This document shows positions 9,473-32,523 of a DNA stretch of 34,814 nt, in pieces. Where the stretch lies: assembly GCA_028700425.1 (NCBI GenBank), contig JAQVSP010000006.1:1-34814 (forward strand). Reading direction: 5' to 3'. Origin of the DNA: Sphaerochaetaceae bacterium (GTDB taxonomy: Bacteria > Spirochaetota > Spirochaetia > Sphaerochaetales > Sphaerochaetaceae). Both the position numbers and the translations under genes were made by a program. The notes beneath the pieces were generated by a model that saw only the letters and a program-made list of their open reading frames with translations, was not told where the DNA came from and made no database searches. Position 1 is the stretch's first letter. The number at the start of each line of letters is the position of its first letter.

Positions 9473-9672
9473 TGTGCAACCAGCTTAATTCTACTCTGGA
9501 ACTGACAAATTTGGGGAGTGTTTTTCCAAAGACAACAATAATTTCCTAAACATTTTGTTTTTTACGCAATTTTTACTATAAATGCTTCATTATTTCATGT
9601 TTTTTGGTTTGGATATTTACTTTTAGATAAACATATGCCATCATTGTTATGATTTACACGGAGGTAATTTCA
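9473..9672. promoter_or_regulatory. AT-rich divergent intergenic region
   Basis: About 200 bp between the glycosylase (minus) and the PLP-enzyme gene (plus), clearly more AT-rich than the flanks. On the plus strand a TATAAA (9577-9582) and a TATGAT (9645-9650) are possible -10 boxes without good -35 partners. GGAGG at 9660-9664 is the ribosome-binding site of the downstream gene. No stable hairpin was found. Confidence 0.4.
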
Positions 9673-11139
9673 ATGTTAATCAACCTAAAGATGCATAAGG
9701 ACGTAAGAGCTCGCAACGTCGAACGCTGCAAAGAGAAGAGCATAGTAATGCCGACATTTGCCCAGATGGCAAATCCGGCTCTCATCCCTGGCAATATAAA
9801 GGACAGCCTTAAGGATGTAGGACTTTGGGATGTAAATCCCCTGAACCTGTTCAGGATCAACTGGCATAATGAGCCCGTTGAGAAGGGCGGCACATTCGGA
9901 CCGGTGAACTACATTGAGATCCCAAGGCAGATCACAGGCACCAAGGCAAGGATCCTGGCCCTTGCAGGCAAGTGGTTCCCATGCGGAGTTCACAAGGTAG
10001 GAGCTACCTACGGCTGTCTCGCCCCAGCTCTTGTCACCGGAAACTTCGATGCACAGAACCAGCAGGCTGTATGGCCTTCAACGGGCAACTACTGCCGCGG
10101 CGGAGCCTACAACAGCGCACTGCTCAACTGCAAGTCAATCGCAATCCTCCCAGCTGAGATGAGCAAGGAGAGATTCGAATGGCTCAAGACAGTCGCTGGC
10201 GAGATCATTGCAACCCCAGGCTGCGAGTCAAACGTCAAGGAGATCTTCGACAAGTGCCACGAGCTCAACGAGACCCGTGGAGCCAACATTGTCATATTCA
10301 ACCAGTTCGAGCAATTCGAGAACTACCTCTGGCATTACAAGGTGACCGGATCGGCAATGCTTGAGGTTCTCAAGTCCCTCAATATAAAGCCGGAGAACGT
10401 AAGAGGATACGCCTCCTCCACAGGAAGCGGCGGAACGCTGGCTGCCGGAGACCATCTCAAGGATGTCTTCCCCAACATCAAGATTGCAGCCGGCGAGGCT
10501 CTTCAGTGCCCAACCCTTCTTCGCAATGGCTTTGGCGGCCACCGAATCGAGGGAATCGGAGACAAGCATGTTCCATGGATCCACAACGTCAAGAACACAG
10601 ACATGATCTGCGCCATCGACGACCAGGACTGCATGGATGTCTACCGCCTCTTCAATGAGCCCGATGGAAAGGCCTATCTCAAGAGCATAGGACTTACAGA
10701 CCAGCAGCTCAAGGACCTTGAGCTTTTCGGGATCAGCGGAATCGGCAACATGCTCTCCGCCATCAAGATGGCCAAGTACTATGAGATGGATGAGAACGAT
10801 GTGGTATTCACAATCCTTACAGACTCCACTGTCATGTACACAAGCCGCCTTGCAGAGCTTGATGCCAAGCAGGGCAAGTTCAGCCTCACTGAGGCAGCCA
10901 GGGTCCATAGCGGAGCCTTGCTCCACCAGAGCATCGCAAACGCCCTTGAGCTCGGCTACTATGACAGGCTTAGAATCCATAACCTCAAGTACTACACCTG
11001 GGTTGAGCAGCAGGGCAAGACCTATGCCGAGATCCAGGCTCAGTGGTATGACCGAGACTATTGGAAGCAGATTCCAGCCATGGCCGACAAGATCGACAAG
11101 CTGATCACTGCCTTCAATGCCGAAGTCAGCGGCAAATAG
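9673..11139 (+). CDS. PLP-dependent fold-type II enzyme, cysteine/threonine-synthase-like, substrate unassigned
   Basis: I set the start at the ATG at 9673, which has GGAGG 8 nt upstream; an in-frame ATG at 9649 precedes that site and cannot use it. The product is 488 aa. Fold-type II features are visible: Lys108 in CGVHKVGATYG as the probable Schiff-base lysine, STGNYCRGGAYN (136-147) as the Asn-containing substrate loop, and STGSGGTLAAGD (249-260) as the PLP phosphate-binding loop. It is longer than CysK (about 310 aa) and ThrC, with extra N- and C-terminal regions. The neighbour is a threonine synthase on the same strand. Related proteins are usually annotated only as PLP-dependent beta-subunit or lyase/thiolase-like; OrtB-type 2-amino-4-oxopentanoate thiolase is a possibility, but no OrtA partner gene is present. 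Confidence 0.75.
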   Translation: MLINLKMHKDVRARNVERCKEKSIVMPTFAQMANPALIPGNIKDSLKDVGLWDVNPLNLFRINWHNEPVEKGGTFGPVNYIEIPRQITGTKARILALAGKWFPCGVHKVGATYGCLAPALVTGNFDAQNQQAVWPSTGNYCRGGAYNSALLNCKSIAILPAEMSKERFEWLKTVAGEIIATPGCESNVKEIFDKCHELNETRGANIVIFNQFEQFENYLWHYKVTGSAMLEVLKSLNIKPENVRGYASSTGSGGTLAAGDHLKDVFPNIKIAAGEALQCPTLLRNGFGGHRIEGIGDKHVPWIHNVKNTDMICAIDDQDCMDVYRLFNEPDGKAYLKSIGLTDQQLKDLELFGISGIGNMLSAIKMAKYYEMDENDVVFTILTDSTVMYTSRLAELDAKQGKFSLTEAARVHSGALLHQSIANALELGYYDRLRIHNLKYYTWVEQQGKTYAEIQAQWYDRDYWKQIPAMADKIDKLITAFNAEVSGK

Positions 11140-11154
11140 CCGACAAGAGTCAGG

Positions 11155-11185
11155 AGCGAGGGCCGTTGGTCCTCGCTTTTCTTTT
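11155..11185 (+). terminator. Intrinsic terminator between the two PLP-enzyme genes
   Basis: AGCGAGG and CCTCGCT form a perfect 7-bp stem (11155-11177), extendable by CC/GG inside the loop, followed by TTTCTTTT. It lies 16 bp after the upstream stop and just before the next gene's AGGAG, so it probably reduces rather than fully stops read-through into the threonine synthase gene. Confidence 0.8.
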
Positions 11186-11202
11186 ATGATAAAGGAGCTA
11201 TT

Positions 11203-12429
11203 ATGAAATTCTCATACGTATGCAATGACTGCGGCAGGGAGTATAGGACTGATGATATCATGTACCAGTGCCCTCACTGTTCAAAGGAGAATGATGGAAC
11301 GCACTTTCCAAAGGGCAACCTGAGAGTCATCTATGACAAGCAGGATCTGGAGAGGCTGAAGGAGAAGGAGCATGTCACATGCTACGACTTCTTCCCCTAC
11401 GAGATACCAAACCATGATGCCTATCCTGTAGGAAACACTCCGCTGGCCAGGCCAGTCAGGCTCAATAGGGAAAGCGGCTTGAAGAACACATACTGCAAGC
11501 TTGACAGCGCCCTGCCCTCTGGGTCCTTCAAGGACCGAGCAAGCCAGCTGATAGTGGGACAGGCGCTTGCTCATGGCCAGACCCGCATAGCACTGGCCTC
11601 AACAGGCAACGCCGGAGCGGCCATGTCATGTGCAGGAGCTGCCTACGGCCTGGAGATTGTTCTCTTCGTGCCGAAGACCGCCCCAATCAACAAGCTCATG
11701 CAGAGCGTGCTCTACAATGCAACTGTAGTGCCAGTCGACGGCACCTATGATGATGCTTTTGAAAGGTCGATTGAGTATACGGAGGCCTTTGGAGGAATCA
11801 ACCGCAACACTGCCTACAATCCAATGACCATAGAGGGGAAGAAGAGCGTTTCCATCGAGCTATTCGAGCAGCTTGGACGCAAGGCCCCTGATGCTGTCTA
11901 TGTAGCAGTGGGCGATGGATGCATATACGCAGGAGTCTGCAAGGGCTTCTACGACCTGCTGCAGGCTGGCTTGATAAGCAAGATGCCCAAGGTCATATGC
12001 GCCCAGAGCACAGGGTCCAATGCTATAAGCCAGGCCTTCCTCACATCACGCAAGGTGCCTATGGAGAACCCGACTACCAGAGCCGATTCCATCAGCGTAG
12101 GCCTTCCTGCCAACGGAAGCATGGCTGTTGACTACATTCGCGAGACAGAGGCCTGGGCAACAGAGGTCACCGACCAGGAGATTCTTGATGCACAGCTTCA
12201 GCTTACCTCAAAGGCTGGAATCTTTGTTGAGCCTGCTGCTGCATGTGCCTGGGCTGCCTACGCAAAGGACCTGGACAAGATCAAGAAAGAGCTTGGCGAG
12301 GATGCATGTGTGGTCGTTCTTCTAACCGGCACGGGCTTCAAGGACATGGCCGCCTTCGATGGGCGTGTCAGCATTCCCCCTGCAATTGAGAACAGCAAGG
12401 CCGCTGTGCTCAGGCGCTTTGGGCGATGA
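11203..12429 (+). CDS. thrC: Threonine synthase with N-terminal zinc ribbon
   Basis: PLP enzyme converting O-phosphohomoserine to threonine. Residues 7-26 carry two CxxC knuckles (C7, C10, C23, C26), a zinc ribbon seen in many archaeal and bacterial threonine synthases. Lys110 in SGSFKDRAS is the PLP lysine; STGNAGAAMSCAGAAYG is the substrate loop, VAVGDGCIYAG the phosphate-binding loop, and LLTGTGFKD the C-terminal motif typical of ThrC. It is 408 aa, a normal length. The ATG has AGGAG about 7 nt upstream. No homoserine kinase or dehydrogenase gene is adjacent. A threonine-synthase-like enzyme of other specificity cannot be excluded, given the unassigned PLP enzyme upstream. Confidence 0.8.
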   Translation: MKFSYVCNDCGREYRTDDIMYQCPHCSKENDGTHFPKGNLRVIYDKQDLERLKEKEHVTCYDFFPYEIPNHDAYPVGNTPLARPVRLNRESGLKNTYCKLDSALPSGSFKDRASQLIVGQALAHGQTRIALASTGNAGAAMSCAGAAYGLEIVLFVPKTAPINKLMQSVLYNATVVPVDGTYDDAFERSIEYTEAFGGINRNTAYNPMTIEGKKSVSIELFEQLGRKAPDAVYVAVGDGCIYAGVCKGFYDLLQAGLISKMPKVICAQSTGSNAISQAFLTSRKVPMENPTTRADSISVGLPANGSMAVDYIRETEAWATEVTDQEILDAQLQLTSKAGIFVEPAAACAWAAYAKDLDKIKKELGEDACVVVLLTGTGFKDMAAFDGRVSIPPAIENSKAAVLRRFGR

Positions 12430-21923: not shown

Positions 21924-23708
21924 TTATTTTCCTGTCAGTCTCTCATACTCATCCAGAAGGCCTGCAAAGCGCTCGATAGCTGTCTTCACCGGCTCAGGTG
22001 TGCTCATGTCGACTCCAGCTGCCTTCAGGCTCTCTATTGGATACCTGGAGCCGCCGCTTCTAAGGAATCCAAGGTAGTCAGCAAGCTCGCTGGCTCCGCC
22101 CTCCATGACGCGCTTGGAAAGAGCGATGGAGGCTGAAAGCCCTGTTGAGTACTTGTAGACGTAGAAGGCCCTGTAGAAATGAGGGATCCTCAAGGCTTCC
22201 AGCGAGCTTTCCTCCGGCAGATAGACTTCATCGCCGAAGTACATCTTCAAAAGCTCGCCGTAGATCTCGCGGATTGAGTCAAGGGTCAAGGGGACTCCCG
22301 ACTCTGCAAGCCTGTGGGCCTTCAGCTCGAACTCTGCAAACATGGTCTGGCGGAACAGGGTTCCGATTATGTCATCAAGCTGGCTGCTGATGATCGAGGC
22401 CTTGGCAGTATCGCTAGGGGTGTGGGCCAGAAGATAGCGTGCAAGCATCTGCTCATTGAAGGTCGATGCAACCTCTGCCTCAAAGATGGTGTAGTTCGCG
22501 CATGAGACCGGATTGCTCCTGTTGCTGTAGTAGCTGTGCATGGAGTGTCCGCCCTCGTGAGCCAAGGTAAAGAGGCTCTTGTTGGTGTCTCCACGATAGC
22601 TGATAAGTATGAAGGGATTTCCCACAAGAGCGCCTGCGCTGAAAGCTCCGCTTCTCTTGCCCTTGTTCTCATAGCGATCGACCCAGCGGTCTTCTGTCAG
22701 GCCCTTGCAAAGCACTCCAACATAATCCTGTCCCAGCGGCAGCAATGCATCATGGATGATTGAGACAGCCTGGTCATAGGAGATGTCGGTCTTCTCTTCG
22801 CTTACCATCGGGGTGTAAACATCCCAGTGTGAGAGCTTTTTCAGCCCGAGGGCCCTGCGCTTGACATCGTAGAAGCGATGAAGCACCTCAAGGCCGCCAT
22901 GTACAGTCTCAATAAGGTTCTCGTAGACGCTGGAGGGAACCTTGTCCTGGAAGAGGGGCGCCTCAAGGCAGCTGGAGAATCCGCGTGCTCTTGATATGAA
23001 GATATCCTGCTTGACAGCGGAGCCATAAAGGCTGGCTATTGTCTGCTTTACTGAGTCAAAGCCCTTGTAGTACTGCTTGTAGGCTTTCTTCCTGAGCTTT
23101 GGATCCTCAGAATGCAGGAAGGATGAGAGGGAGGAGTTGGTAAGCGGCTTTCCGTCGATCTTGCCAAAATCCAGGTCCACGTTCGTCAAGGCTGCAAAGG
23201 CTGCCTGAGGGGCTGAGGATACGCTTCCCTGCATTGCAAGGATGTTCTCCTCCTTCTCGCTGAGGATGTGATCCTTGAGCCTGAGAGTCTTGTGCAAGGC
23301 AACGCGGTAGTCGGCAAAGTCAGGCTCGTCTGCCCATTTATCAGCATCCTTGATGCTCATGAGCTGAGGCTCAAAGTAGCTGAATGCAGACTCAAAGTCC
23401 GTCTCAAGCTGGCTTGCCATCCCAAGCCTTTTCTGGTTGGCACCATCAGAGCCATCGGCTGCATGCTTTAAGAAGGCGTAGTTTCCTATGCGGTCAAGCT
23501 CCTTTATGGCTGTCCATCTCCAGCCAAGAGTCTCGAGAAGGCCTTCACGGCCCTCCATCATCCTCTTCTGGAACCCAGAGACCTTTGCAATCTCTGCCTT
23601 GAATGCCTCATAGGCCTTCTCCCACTGCTGGTCATCTGCAAAAAGGGAGCTCAGGTCCCACTTGTCCGATTCCGCAATCTCGCTTCTTTTCTTCAGCTCT
23701 TCGCTCAT
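21924..23708 (-). CDS. pepF: Oligoendopeptidase F, M3 family zinc peptidase
   Basis: Cytoplasmic metallopeptidase that cleaves short oligopeptides. The zinc motif HEGGH is at 384-388 (TLAHEGGHSMHSYYS), with the third-ligand Glu about 25 residues downstream in YTIFEAEVASTFNE. Flanking PepF-typical stretches are FSAGALVGNPFILISYRG and YKYSTGLSASIALS. It is 594 aa, the usual size of the PepF/M3B clade. The start overlaps the rdgB stop as ATGA. It was probably co-transcribed with rdgB; a weak 4-bp hairpin plus T run follows at about 21885-21897. Confidence 0.94.
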   Translation of the reverse strand: MSEELKKRSEIAESDKWDLSSLFADDQQWEKAYEAFKAEIAKVSGFQKRMMEGREGLLETLGWRWTAIKELDRIGNYAFLKHAADGSDGANQKRLGMASQLETDFESAFSYFEPQLMSIKDADKWADEPDFADYRVALHKTLRLKDHILSEKEENILAMQGSVSSAPQAAFAALTNVDLDFGKIDGKPLTNSSLSSFLHSEDPKLRKKAYKQYYKGFDSVKQTIASLYGSAVKQDIFISRARGFSSCLEAPLFQDKVPSSVYENLIETVHGGLEVLHRFYDVKRRALGLKKLSHWDVYTPMVSEEKTDISYDQAVSIIHDALLPLGQDYVGVLCKGLTEDRWVDRYENKGKRSGAFSAGALVGNPFILISYRGDTNKSLFTLAHEGGHSMHSYYSNRSNPVSCANYTIFEAEVASTFNEQMLARYLLAHTPSDTAKASIISSQLDDIIGTLFRQTMFAEFELKAHRLAESGVPLTLDSIREIYGELLKMYFGDEVYLPEESSLEALRIPHFYRAFYVYKYSTGLSASIALSKRVMEGGASELADYLGFLRSGGSRYPIESLKAAGVDMSTPEPVKTAIERFAGLLDEYERLTGK

Positions 23709-24319
23709 GCTCTATCTCCTCCATCTTTCTCTATCTCATTGATCACTGCAAGCATCGCCCTGGATGCCAGGGCCCTGTGTCCGATTCGGTTCTTGACTTC
23801 AGTGCCAAGAGTCGCCATTGTCACATTATAGCCATCGATCACAAACACTGGATCATAGCCAAAGCCTCCAGATCCTTCAAGGTGGGTGCTTATCGACCCA
23901 TTGACGGCCCTTTGGATTGTATATATCTCGTTTTCGCTGACCATCAGCGTCAGGCAGCAGACGAAATGGGCCCTTCTGTCCAGGCCCTCAAGGCGCTTGA
24001 TCAAGAGCCTGTTCTTCTGCTCTGCGGTGAGGAGCTGGATGCCATCAGGGGATCCAAAGCGCGCAGTGTGAATGCCAAGCTCACCAGGAAGGCTGTCAAC
24101 CAGAAGGCCTGAGTCATCCGCAAGCACCGCATGCCTGCCGCCGACCAGGTAAAAAAGGCTCCTGGCCTTGAGCATGGAGTTCTCAAGGAATGTTGTTCCT
24201 GTTTCATCGCAGTCGAAGTCTATGCCTAGATCCGAGGGAAGTTCCAGCTCAACGCCCTTTAAAAGGGCTGCAAGCTCCTCTCTCTTATGGCCATTGTTGC
24301 TTGCCAATAGAATATGCAT
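23705..24319 (-). CDS. rdgB: Non-canonical purine NTP pyrophosphatase (RdgB/HAM1)
   Basis: Hydrolyses ITP, dITP and XTP to keep deaminated purines out of nucleic acids. Family motifs: SNNGHKREE at 7-15 (the S/T-x-N-x-x-K phosphate site), ADDSGLLVDSLPGELGIHTARF in the middle (catalytic Asp pair), GGFGYDPVF and KNRIGHRALA towards the C-terminus. It is 204 aa, typical. No Shine-Dalgarno is visible; a TATTAT about 11 nt before the ATG could be a -10, which would make the transcript nearly leaderless, though no good -35 is seen. It overlaps pepF. Confidence 0.94.
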   Translation of the reverse strand: MHILLASNNGHKREELAALLKGVELELPSDLGIDFDCDETGTTFLENSMLKARSLFYLVGGRHAVLADDSGLLVDSLPGELGIHTARFGSPDGIQLLTAEQKNRLLIKRLEGLDRRAHFVCCLTLMVSENEIYTIQRAVNGSISTHLEGSGGFGYDPVFVIDGYNVTMATLGTEVKNRIGHRALASRAMLAVINEIEKDGGDRA

Positions 24320-24375: not shown

Positions 24376-25509
24376 TCATTTAGGATCCAGGCTTACCAAT
24401 CCATAGCGCTGAGCATTGTCACGGATCAGGCTTCTCAGCTGAAGGCAGGTGAAGCCGACATCCTCGAGCAATGAGAAGCGAGCATCCAGCATGAGCCTGC
24501 GCTGCCTCTCATCAAGGCCTTCAAGGCGAAGATGCCTGGAATAAGCCTTTTTCTCATCAAGGCACTGGCCTCTGGAGGCTCGAAGTGCATCCTGGATCAT
24601 CTGGCGTCCAAGCGTTACAGTGCTGGAGACCGATCCGCGAGGCTTGTTCTGCAGGTCGATGAGAATCTTCAGTGGAAAACGGATTCTTTCTCTCTCCTGG
24701 ATTCTCTTTCCTGCCATCTTCTTGCGGCATCGTGCAAGCTTCTCCCCCAGGACTTCAGCCTCAGCAACAGATGCGCTGCCCATCTTCTGCTCAAGCTCCA
24801 TGGAATGAAGCAGGTAGATGTTGTGCAGCTGCTTATCGTGCTCCCTGTTCACCTGTACCTGGAACTGATAGCCCTCAAAGACCTCCTTTATCCTCTTCAT
24901 CTCCAGCTTGTCGTAGCCGAGGAGCTCTGCGATGACCTCCATCTCCAGTAGGCTTGCCTCAGGCAGCAGGCAGAAGATCACTGTTGAAGCTCTCTTTCGG
25001 CAGACAGCAGAATGATACATGGCATTCTTGAGCCTATACATGGCATCCTGGTAAAGGCTCTTGAGAAGGTTGTCGCCATCTTCGCGCAAGGCAAGATGGT
25101 AGGCAGCTGGCTCTGCATCACCCTCTTCGTCAGTGAATGATGCTCTCTCACCCATGGCCCATGTCCGCTCCGCAATGGAAGCCTTCAGGCCTGCTGCAAA
25201 GCTTGAATGGCTGTAGCATGACATGCGAAAGCGGATCACAGCCTTGAGATAGGATTCGAAAGACACTCCCCTATAGGTGAAATCAAGAATCAGGGACTTC
25301 ACAGAAGGCATTACGTAAAGAAGGAAGCCAGAGGCATCCTCGCCATCAATCCTCCTTATGGCCTGCGGATAAAAATATATGAACTCCATACAGCCTTGGC
25401 AAAGCTCTATATAGCCCGGATCGCTTTGAAGGGCTCTATCATCAGCTGTCTTTCCCATCCGAGACTGCAGCTCCAGAACCATCTTGGTCATCCTTGTCAT
25501 CTCAGCCAT
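24376..25509 (-). CDS. Unassigned 377-aa protein; N-terminal part faintly resembles sigma region 2
   Basis: I do not recognise this protein with confidence. It has no signal peptide or membrane segment and is rich in Arg, Lys, Leu and Met with mostly helical character. Residues about 40-105 (MEFIYFYPQAIRR, DASGFLLYVMPSVK, VSFESYLKAVIRFRM) recall the aromatic, helical pattern of sigma-70 region 2, as in a group of poorly described spirochaete proteins; this is my pattern recognition, not a domain match. The middle (LEMEVIAELLGYDKLEMKRIKEVFEGYQ) and a later stretch (TLGRQMIQDALRAS) could be helix-turn-helix-like. The ATG has GGAGG 9 nt upstream. It is co-directional with rdgB, 56 bp away. Confidence 0.6.
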   Translation of the reverse strand: MAEMTRMTKMVLELQSRMGKTADDRALQSDPGYIELCQGCMEFIYFYPQAIRRIDGEDASGFLLYVMPSVKSLILDFTYRGVSFESYLKAVIRFRMSCYSHSSFAAGLKASIAERTWAMGERASFTDEEGDAEPAAYHLALREDGDNLLKSLYQDAMYRLKNAMYHSAVCRKRASTVIFCLLPEASLLEMEVIAELLGYDKLEMKRIKEVFEGYQFQVQVNREHDKQLHNIYLLHSMELEQKMGSASVAEAEVLGEKLARCRKKMAGKRIQERERIRFPLKILIDLQNKPRGSVSSTVTLGRQMIQDALRASRGQCLDEKKAYSRHLRLEGLDERQRRLMLDARFSLLEDVGFTCLQLRSLIRDNAQRYGLVSLDPK

Positions 25510-25597: not shown

Positions 25598-25622
25598 TGT
25601 TACTTTTTTCTAAATAGTAACA
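25598..25622. repeat. Perfect 7-bp inverted repeat
   Basis: TGTTACT and AGTAACA flank an 11-nt AT-rich centre. The repeat overlaps the end of the possible 79-aa ORF and lies about 90 bp upstream of the 377-aa gene on the minus strand. There is no T tract beyond the stem, so an operator is as likely as a terminator. Confidence 0.4.
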
Positions 25623-25839
25623 TAGGGTTGTATAGTTGACAATATTTAGCAACACTAGCTGTCAAGAAATCAAAATATTCTTGACTGCAAGGAGCTTCAA
25701 GCTCTTGCCTCAACTGAGATAGGGCAAAAAACCTTCCGGCCGGCTTTCTGGATCCTGTTGGCAAGGCATGGCTGCTTGTGTTGAAGCGCTCCACATTACT
25801 TCTCTGTGTGTGAAAGAATGTAGATGCTTCAATCTTCAT
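25600..25839 (-). CDS. Possible small ORF, 79 aa, unknown
   Basis: A lone small ORF in an otherwise empty 411-bp gap. Its ATG has GGAGA about 5 nt upstream, a good site for this genome. The product begins MKIEASTFFHTQRSNVERF and ends in a Tyr/Phe/Leu-rich tail; there is no signal peptide, membrane helix or familiar motif. The stop codon is embedded in an inverted repeat (25598-25622). Codon use is not clearly like that of the neighbours. It may be a real small protein, a decayed gene end, or part of a dispersed intergenic repeat. Confidence 0.35.
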   Translation of the reverse strand: MKIEASTFFHTQRSNVERFNTSSHALPTGSRKPAGRFFALSQLRQELEAPCSQEYFDFLTASVAKYCQLYNPMLLFRKK

Positions 25840-25920: not shown

Positions 25921-26427
25921 ATGAAAGCAAGGAAACTAGTGGTGACAATTATGATGCTGGCAATAGCCAGTGCGGCGGCCTTTGCAGGTACTACCTACAT
26001 AGGAACAAACGAGAGGATCCTGATTGTTCACGATGATGGAACATGGGAGAATCTTCAGAGCATAGAGGAGGATGGAACCTCCTATGAGGTCTGGAACAAT
26101 GTTCGCTTTGAGAACTACAAGTGGGACAGCACCAATGTTGTGAAGGTCGGCAAGTTCCTTCAGGAAGGCTTCTCGCTGACAATGACCATGGGGTGCTATT
26201 ACCGCCTTGAGATGAGCACATCCCAGTCCAAGTCCAAGTCAGCCTTAAGCTGGGAGGATCCTGTTCTCATGCTCAGCGATGGATCCATCATAGAGGGCTT
26301 TTCAGAGAAGCTGTCTGACCAGTCCTACAGCATTGTCTTCGATGTTCCTGATGGACTGGAGCCAATAAATGTAGGCTTTACGACCTCCAACAGCCAGGAT
26401 TGGCAGTTCTGCTACATCTCGTACTGA
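25921..26427 (+). CDS. Secreted protein with HDDGTW motif (paralogue 1)
   Basis: A 168-aa protein with a clear Sec signal peptide (KARKLVV, hydrophobic core, cleavage after AAAFA at about residue 22) and no lipobox Cys. The mature protein opens with RILIVHDDGTW, followed by a beta-rich domain containing FENYKWDSTNVVKVGKFL, YRLEM, LMLSDGSIIEGFSEKL and IVFDVPDGLEP. The downstream gene encodes the same series of motifs and is a tandem paralogue. The x-H-x-DGTW start resembles small periplasmic DUF families annotated from a DDGTWEY motif, function unknown. The ATG has AAGGAGA upstream, and a 5-bp hairpin (25874-25895) sits in the leader. Confidence 0.75.
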   Translation: MKARKLVVTIMMLAIASAAAFAGTTYIGTNERILIVHDDGTWENLQSIEEDGTSYEVWNNVRFENYKWDSTNVVKVGKFLQEGFSLTMTMGCYYRLEMSTSQSKSKSALSWEDPVLMLSDGSIIEGFSEKLSDQSYSIVFDVPDGLEPINVGFTTSNSQDWQFCYISY

Positions 26428-26542
26428 GAATGTGGAAAAAGATGTAGTTTGACGACAAAGGCTTAACGGCTTGGAAAACCGTGATTATCATTAGCATAGA
26501 ACCAGCGAGAACTGGAAACCTTTTGCTTAGGAGAGTGTAAAG

Positions 26543-27118
26543 ATGAGAAAGAAAGCATTATTGACAATCGCCTTGATTGCATTGGTGACTGCTGTGGCTA
26601 TGGCTGCAGACATGACCGCTGTGACAACCAGCGATTCCAAGGTCGTGATCCTTCATGAGGATGGGACATGGCAGTACTTTGAGAGAAGGTCCTATGACCA
26701 GGAGACAGGATACCTTTTGTCCGGAGTCCCTGAGTTCAAGAACCTCCAGTGGAGCGAAGCTAAGCTTGTGAAGCTTGGCAACTGGCTTGCAGGAGGGCGG
26801 ACGGGCTTATACACAAGCGGTGAGTTCTACCTGCTGGAGCTGAACGCTGACAGTGCAAAGGCAAGCTCCTCAGACAAGTGGAATGCTCCGTATCTTGTGC
26901 TCAGCGACGGAACAAAGGTGGAGGGTTTCTCCGCTTCCCTGTCTCAGAGCCGCTACAGCTCAACCTACAAGAGCCTCACAGGCCAAAGCTCAGTGACAGT
27001 CAAGTACACCATGATCTTCGAGATCCCTTCTGCAGCTGAAGTAAGCTCAGTTGAGTTCATCAAGGATGGCTCAGAGGCCGTAGAGTCGGCAACTTTGTCG
27101 GAGCTAAGGGTGTTTTAG
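26543..27118 (+). CDS. Secreted protein with HEDGTW motif (paralogue 2)
   Basis: A 191-aa protein with a Sec signal peptide (RKKALL, hydrophobic core, cleavage near AVAMA at residue 21). The mature start KVVILHEDGTWQYFE matches RILIVHDDGTW of the upstream gene. Colinear matches follow: FKNLQWSEAKLVKLGNWL, FYLLEL, LVLSDGTKVEGFSASL and MIFEIPSAAEV. Relative to paralogue 1 it has insertions in the middle and a longer C-terminus ending SATLSELRVF. The ATG has AGGAG 8 nt upstream. The 115-bp gap between the two genes has a weak hairpin but no obvious terminator, so they may be co-expressed. A terminator follows. Confidence 0.75.
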   Translation: MRKKALLTIALIALVTAVAMAADMTAVTTSDSKVVILHEDGTWQYFERRSYDQETGYLLSGVPEFKNLQWSEAKLVKLGNWLAGGRTGLYTSGEFYLLELNADSAKASSSDKWNAPYLVLSDGTKVEGFSASLSQSRYSSTYKSLTGQSSVTVKYTMIFEIPSAAEVSSVEFIKDGSEAVESATLSELRVF

Positions 27119-31367: not shown

Positions 31368-32417
31368 CTATTCATTTCTGACATACCTTGCACTTCTCGT
31401 AGATCCTATTTTGGCAATACGTCCTTCTTTGAGCATTCTTGACAGAACGCTTTCGATTGTGGGGATGCTGATGTCAGGCAGAATATCATGAAGCTCCTGC
31501 TTGGAGATTGGTGTCAGGCTTCCTAGTACTGCAGCCTCAACCCGATTTTGCTTGTTGAACTTGTGGTCCTTGATAACTGCGAAACGTTTATCCAGTTCCT
31601 TATAGCACATGTATAGTGTGGACAGAAAGTTCTCGATGAATGGGAAATAATCGTTTTCGCTTGAATGCCATCCGGTAGAGGACTTCTGCAAGGAATCATA
31701 GTAATAGGCCTTGTACATGTTGATCTGCTCTTCGAACGAGACGTATTTGATAATATCAAAGTTCTCCTTGTACAGTAGCAGGAGGCTGAGAAGACGTGAC
31801 ATCCTGCCGTTGCCGTCACGAAACGGATGTATGCAGAGGAAATCAAGTATCACGCAGGGAATCAGAAGCAGCTGATTTATACTGGAGTCGCTTCTTGCAG
31901 AGTAATAGGCAAGGCAAAGCTGTTCCATGGCTTTTGGGGTATCTTCAGCGGACACAGGCGAGAATCTGATCCTTCTGTTTTTCATGGAGTCTATTTCAAT
32001 GATGGCGTTGTCATGCGTCTTGTATTCTCCTGCATAATCCATGCCTGTATGTGAGAGAAGGATGGAATGAAGGTCAAGGATGTCCTTTTCCGAAAAATCG
32101 AGATGCTCATAATTAAGATGAATCTTGTTCAGCGCATCGCGATATCCGGCAATCTCCTGCTCGTCATGGCTGATTGGTGCAGTGTTCTGGTTGACTATCG
32201 CTTCGATGCGCTTGTCACTGGAGACGATCCCTTCTATGGCATTGGAACCTTTAACGGACTGGACCTTTGCAATCTTCTCCAGTTCGCTGAACATTCCTAT
32301 GTGCTCGTCCTTGCGGATATCTGACATTGTCCTAAGCGAATATATGGCGCTGATGGTGTTTATCAACCTTGCAGGCAGCATGCCGTCTCTCAAAAATGAA
32401 TAATCGAATCTTCTCAT
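31368..32417 (-). CDS. Fic-family protein with N-terminal autoinhibitory motif and C-terminal winged helix
   Basis: Probable AMP- or nucleotidyl-transferase. The Fic motif is HPFRDGNGRMSR with catalytic His187 (numbered from the chosen start) and is fully canonical. An inhibitory-helix motif SNAIEG (58-63) precedes it, marking a class II Fic protein that keeps itself inactive. The last 70 residues (PISKQELHDILPDISIPTIESVLSRMLKEGRIAKIG) look like a winged helix, so it may bind DNA. I choose the ATG at 32417, 349 aa, with AGGAG 10 nt upstream and a TATAAT 31 bp upstream; earlier in-frame ATGs overlap the promoter. There is no small antitoxin gene beside it. Confidence 0.88.
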   Translation of the reverse strand: MRRFDYSFLRDGMLPARLINTISAIYSLRTMSDIRKDEHIGMFSELEKIAKVQSVKGSNAIEGIVSSDKRIEAIVNQNTAPISHDEQEIAGYRDALNKIHLNYEHLDFSEKDILDLHSILLSHTGMDYAGEYKTHDNAIIEIDSMKNRRIRFSPVSAEDTPKAMEQLCLAYYSARSDSSINQLLLIPCVILDFLCIHPFRDGNGRMSRLLSLLLLYKENFDIIKYVSFEEQINMYKAYYYDSLQKSSTGWHSSENDYFPFIENFLSTLYMCYKELDKRFAVIKDHKFNKQNRVEAAVLGSLTPISKQELHDILPDISIPTIESVLSRMLKEGRIAKIGSTRSARYVRNE

Positions 32418-32523
32418 TCTGCCTAATCTCCTCATCAATTTGCCTATATTATAGTACATTTTAGGCAGAATATCAGCAGAAACAGGAGATAATCTCTATA
32501 AATATTCAATTATATTAGGCAGA
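32418..32523. repeat. Four TTAGGCAGA-type motifs around the fic promoter
   Basis: TTAGGCAGA occurs exactly at 32461-32469 and 32515-32523 (plus) and at 32418-32426 (minus), with a partial TAGGCA on the minus strand at 32441-32446. The inner pair forms a TGCCTA/TAGGCA dyad flanking the -10 TATAAT (32448-32453, minus). The arrangement looks like an operator array; the fic protein itself, with its C-terminal winged helix, is a candidate binder. Confidence 0.6.
32448..32453 (-). promoter_or_regulatory. -10 element of the fic promoter
   Basis: A perfect TATAAT on the minus strand, 31 bp before the chosen fic ATG. The -35 position (CTGATA at 17 bp spacing) matches poorly, so activation or repression by a bound regulator would fit. 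Confidence 0.55.

Follow-up and report, generated by a model that had tools for sequence, protein, structure and literature searches.

Small exported proteins folded as an immunoglobulin (Ig)-like beta-sandwich are known in the DUF4352 family (PF11611; for example 4les and 5bxg), and the same organization is predicted for two adjacent genes, here named A and B, of an uncultured Sphaerochaetaceae spirochaete. The two groups are colinear in a hydrophobic F/Y strand, an L-x-L-x-DG turn and an F-x-V-P strand; however, A and B have no significant HMM match to DUF4352 and carry a DGTW entry module that was found in none of the DUF4352 members examined. MPT63 (1lmi), a secreted mycobacterial protein, is likewise an exported Ig-like sandwich similar in size to A and B, but its identity to them is 13% and 9%, and no sequence relation was found. 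DUF3157 proteins begin like A and B, with a signal peptide followed by a DGTW hairpin, whereas their C-terminal part is unlike that of the pair. The same N-terminal entry module is also present in other exported spirochaete proteins with a DGT[WYF] motif (L017-L023, L054, L065, L068 and L072-L079), whose C-terminal regions differ from those of A and B.

Layout and divergence of the gene pair

The pair lies in a window of 34,814 nucleotides, the whole stretch of DNA analysed, with these features:

23705-24319: rdgB
25921-26427, + strand: gene A, 168 aa, exported, with a DGTW hairpin module at about residues 25-47 and a predicted C-terminal Ig-like beta-sandwich
26428-26542, + strand: gap between A and B, 115 nt, without a terminator-like site
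26543-27118, + strand: gene B, 191 aa, exported paralogue with the DGTW module, a predicted C-terminal Ig-like beta-sandwich and an additional loop of 18 residues
27138-27161, + strand: terminator-like hairpin 3' of gene B, 10 pairs, loop of 4, tail TTTTTGTT

Both genes have good ribosome sites (AAGGAGAAAGAA-ATG for A and AGGAGAGTGTAAAG-ATG for B), and their third-position GC is 0.63. As had been described from the letters alone, both products start with a signal peptide: by eye it is of type I, with the cut approximately between AFA and GT in A and between AMA and AD in B, and neither has a lipobox. The mature part of A contains two cysteines, C92 and C164, each in a predicted strand and with no counterpart in B or in the mature parts of the orthologues, which could form a disulphide. 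A single terminator closes the pair, as stated in the preliminary description: a hairpin scan, whose sites were no more numerous than in shuffled DNA, found a strong and well-placed hairpin after B and none in the gap between the genes. With no such site between them, the two genes probably share one transcript.

The paralogy of the two genes and the likeness of their mature parts were confirmed by BLASTP, with 50 of 154 positions identical (32%, E 5e-28), and by a Smith-Waterman score of 207 for the mature parts, 30 SD above that of shuffled sequences (32.7 ± 5.8, maximum 62 in 2000 shuffles). The motif pairs quoted earlier are indeed colinear, all being in register in multiple alignments, FDVPDG/FEIPSA after room is made for the 18 residues inserted ahead of this strand in B; BLASTP and Smith-Waterman, which align the two sequences alone, put this last pair out of register. 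Over the aligned codons the DNA is 51% identical, and where both proteins have the same highly degenerate amino acid, the third base is shared in only 14 of 31 cases, which indicates that the duplication is old. Judged by these alignments, A and B are true, long-diverged paralogues. In a tree of the six family proteins A groups with B with weak support (74/79) and on a long branch, and B is closer than A to the single-copy orthologues. They are the sole two copies found in their own genome, as searched in a 94%-complete assembly of 210 contigs.

Distribution and genomic neighbourhood

The family consists of A, B and the proteins of G025, G023, G027 and G079, these being the full-length relatives found, in one copy each, in 4 of the 138 other Sphaerochaetales genomes; with the source genome, 5 of 139 genomes of the order carry it. 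The relatives are homologous over both the DGTW module and the C-terminal domain, with E from 2e-19 to 2e-40 when B is the query, and a profile of the C-terminal domain alone recovers exactly the same five genomes and sets them apart from the rest of the order. The copy of G023 is incomplete, cut by the end of its contig, and the duplication is seen in the source genome alone. A collection of genome contigs gave no match to gene B alone, while a search with the family alignment returned three MAG contigs, which are the loci of G025, G023 and G027. A class-wide search with the C-terminal profile gave no credible further member; short matches in G432, G451 and G593 (E 0.008-0.05) were taken as chance, and a match in G063 was rejected for its two internal stops in a prophage-like terminase/portal region. 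The family is rare and, as far as these genomes indicate, largely lineage-specific, as previously suggested.

The four orthologues have no neighbouring gene in common, three of their four contigs being short. From translations named by eye, the G025 copy adjoins a MarR-type regulator and a ketopantoate-reductase-like gene, and those of G023, G027 and G079 adjoin a homoserine-dehydrogenase-like, an Hsp20-like and an NYN-domain-like gene, respectively. On the G025 contig, a run of N lies within a transporter-binding-protein-like ORF (L010:4306-4911, − strand).

Around the pair itself, a 79-codon ORF and then a 377-aa protein without a Pfam match are found upstream on the opposite strand, and a TetR-like regulator followed by glf (UDP-galactopyranose mutase) is found downstream on the same strand. 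The earlier remark that the pair has no enzyme neighbours is therefore only loosely true, glf being encoded just past the regulator. None of the neighbourhood genes points to a binding partner of A and B. The 79-codon ORF (25600-25839, − strand) is divergent from gene A and has a good ribosome site; it has no match in the genomes searched within its own family and a single weak one in another family of the class (E 0.005, 43% over 59 aa). The gene of the 377-aa protein (24376-25509, − strand) has distant relatives in three other genomes and occurs in 4 of 138 genomes of the order overall, and since it is as patchy as the pair, the stretch from rdgB to the TetR-like regulator and glf looks lineage-variable. 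Elsewhere in the window, a Fic/DOC-domain protein (31368-32459, − strand) is flanked by a YheO-like PAS regulator on one side and a GH127 beta-L-arabinofuranosidase on the other, and two adjoining PALP (pyridoxal-phosphate) enzymes form a tandem at 9649-12429 (+ strand).

The DGTW module and the C-terminal domain

The preliminary description named H(D/E)DGTW as the entry motif shared by the pair; as a hallmark of A and B it is not supported. In spirochaetes a signal peptide and a D-G-T-[WYF] hairpin also precede other C-terminal regions, of at least five kinds, named here by eye:

PsbP-like: L017-L020, L038
FxLYD-like: L022, L054
F-R-Q-T-I-W-G-M-T-K: L023
V-G-K-Q-Y: L068, L072, L075, L076, L078, L079
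P-Y-N-G: L065, L069

In Pfam, which names none of these C-termini, the N-terminus of DUF3157 comes closest to the module. Beyond the family, a phylum-wide search with a full-length profile gave only weak matches restricted to the N-terminus, some of them mere signal peptides; in a further profile search (alignment A8) most matches covered the signal-peptide half only and were left out of the DGTW set. By these comparisons, DGTW is a generic module placed after signal peptides and not a signature of A and B. Because it recurs before unrelated domains, the motif is unfit for grouping exported proteins, and the family is defined by its C-terminal region of about 130 residues. In G012, two DGT[WYF] profile matches lie near each other (contig C5, 88195 and 88774; part in L079).

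Structure models of both proteins are all-beta (pTM 0.71 for B and 0.67 for A), with five sequences behind each model and the signal peptide and hairpin of A modelled poorly. Foldseek found no match to either model at E <= 0.001, while VIA-align places both among Ig-like sandwiches, namely NEAT domains, 4les, MPT63, adaptin ears and beta-2-microglobulin. For A, the values are Z up to 7.0 against NEAT domains (3.8 Å, 96 aligned), 6.6 against 4les (4.0 Å, 111 aligned; level with unrelated sandwiches) and 6.0 against 1lmi (3.5 Å, 99 aligned); for B, they are 5.4 against NEAT (4.0 Å, 104 aligned), 4.9 against 1lmi (4.7 Å, 102 aligned) and 4.7 against 5bxg (4.2 Å, 103 aligned; level with unrelated sandwiches). 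With all Z values below 8 and no Foldseek match, the fold class is clear in outline only, and the C-terminal region is predicted to be an Ig-like beta-sandwich of the broad DUF4352/MPT63 type.

By sequence, no relative of the pair was found in the PDB, and neither A nor B matches DUF4352 in Pfam at E <= 1 (gathering score 25.9 bits); the source genome has no DUF4352 match either. A profile of spirochaete DUF4352 members does match 4les (2.9e-12) and 5bxg (3.7e-5). When the C-terminal domain was compared with DUF4352 profile to profile, the score was 19.6, in a sensible register, as strand order predicts; of 200 column-shuffled controls (mean 9.9, SD 2.0), one scored as high, while hhalign gave a probability of 2.3% and an E of 0.02. 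A remote kinship of the two domains is possible. The six family sequences have 16 invariant columns, mostly Gly, Pro, Trp, Tyr and Leu, and no invariant Cys, His, Glu, Lys, Arg or Ser; invariant residues of this mostly structural kind argue against an enzyme.

Probable role of the pair and competing readings

The best explanation, with a probability of about 0.6, is an old tandem duplication in a small, exported, non-enzymatic Sphaerochaetaceae family, whose products would be soluble Ig-like sandwiches with a binding role in the periplasm (or outside). According to this model, signal peptidase I would cut A and B and release soluble proteins, each made of a short beta-hairpin entry module of the widespread DGTW type followed by the sandwich, which would serve binding or scaffolding rather than catalysis, with an envelope protein, peptidoglycan or polysaccharide, or a small ligand as partner. 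After the duplication, the copies would have diverged at surface residues and in the loop that leads into the last strands, a pattern in keeping with a separate partner for each copy or with both acting as a hetero-pair. The preliminary description proposed a periplasmic or surface role: the signal peptides without a lipobox fit the periplasm better, and no match to an anchor or wall domain speaks for the surface. We infer both this location and the binding role. As was also anticipated, no family of known function matches A or B, and the pair has no confident match in Pfam, NCBIfam, PHROGs or PADLOC; nothing about it points to an unusual system.

It is scarcely credible that A and B are divergent DUF3157 (PF11355) members with the DGTW N-terminus as their defining trait. 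The Pfam search advised as a check gave B 21.4 bits, close to the gathering score of 21.7, and the G025 orthologue 15.2 bits, but the match of B covers only profile positions 6-44 of 199, that is, the 39 positions of signal peptide and hairpin, and leaves the C-terminal 150 positions unmatched; A has no DUF3157 match at all, and similar scores over the same stretch are reached by spirochaete proteins whose C-termini are quite unlike those of the pair (L023 21.7, L054 21.6 and L020 18.1 bits). Also improbable, if somewhat less so, is a NEAT-like sandwich that would act in the periplasm by binding haem or some other small ligand, an idea that arises from NEAT domains being the top VIA-align match for both models. 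They are, however, nearly tied with adaptin ears, beta-2-microglobulin and others, as for any generic sandwich, and Pfam NEAT gives no match. Moreover, A, G025, G023 and G027 lack the YxxxY haem motif, and in B it occupies residues 138-142, in a low-confidence loop, whereas NEAT domains have it in a strand towards the C-terminus of the sandwich; no haem-uptake genes lie alongside the pair.

An obligate heterodimer, with A and B as the duplicated subunit of one envelope complex, would agree with their tandem and probably co-transcribed arrangement, their common predicted fold and their strong divergence; four genomes with single-copy orthologues indicate that a one-gene form works alone there, and this reading is unlikely. 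The patchy distribution of the family and the similar rarity of the flanking gene at 24376-25509 could recall a cargo pair of a mobile element or of a defence or toxin system, which is nonetheless extremely improbable: neither PHROGs nor PADLOC gives a match, phage, plasmid and viral-contig collections hold no relative of gene B, no direct repeats surround the pair and no integrase is present among the scanned genes.

The duplicated sandwich protein proposed here defines, with its orthologues, a small family outside the existing Pfam and NCBIfam models. A bolder and very improbable idea is that the DGT[WYF] hairpin is an exchangeable address or assembly tag, recognized by one common spirochaete (or wider bacterial) envelope factor and fused to many unrelated periplasmic folds, of which A and B would be one instance. 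If such a tag were functional, the pair would bear on the question of sorting in spirochaete envelopes; otherwise, A and B would represent an ordinary lineage-specific duplication.
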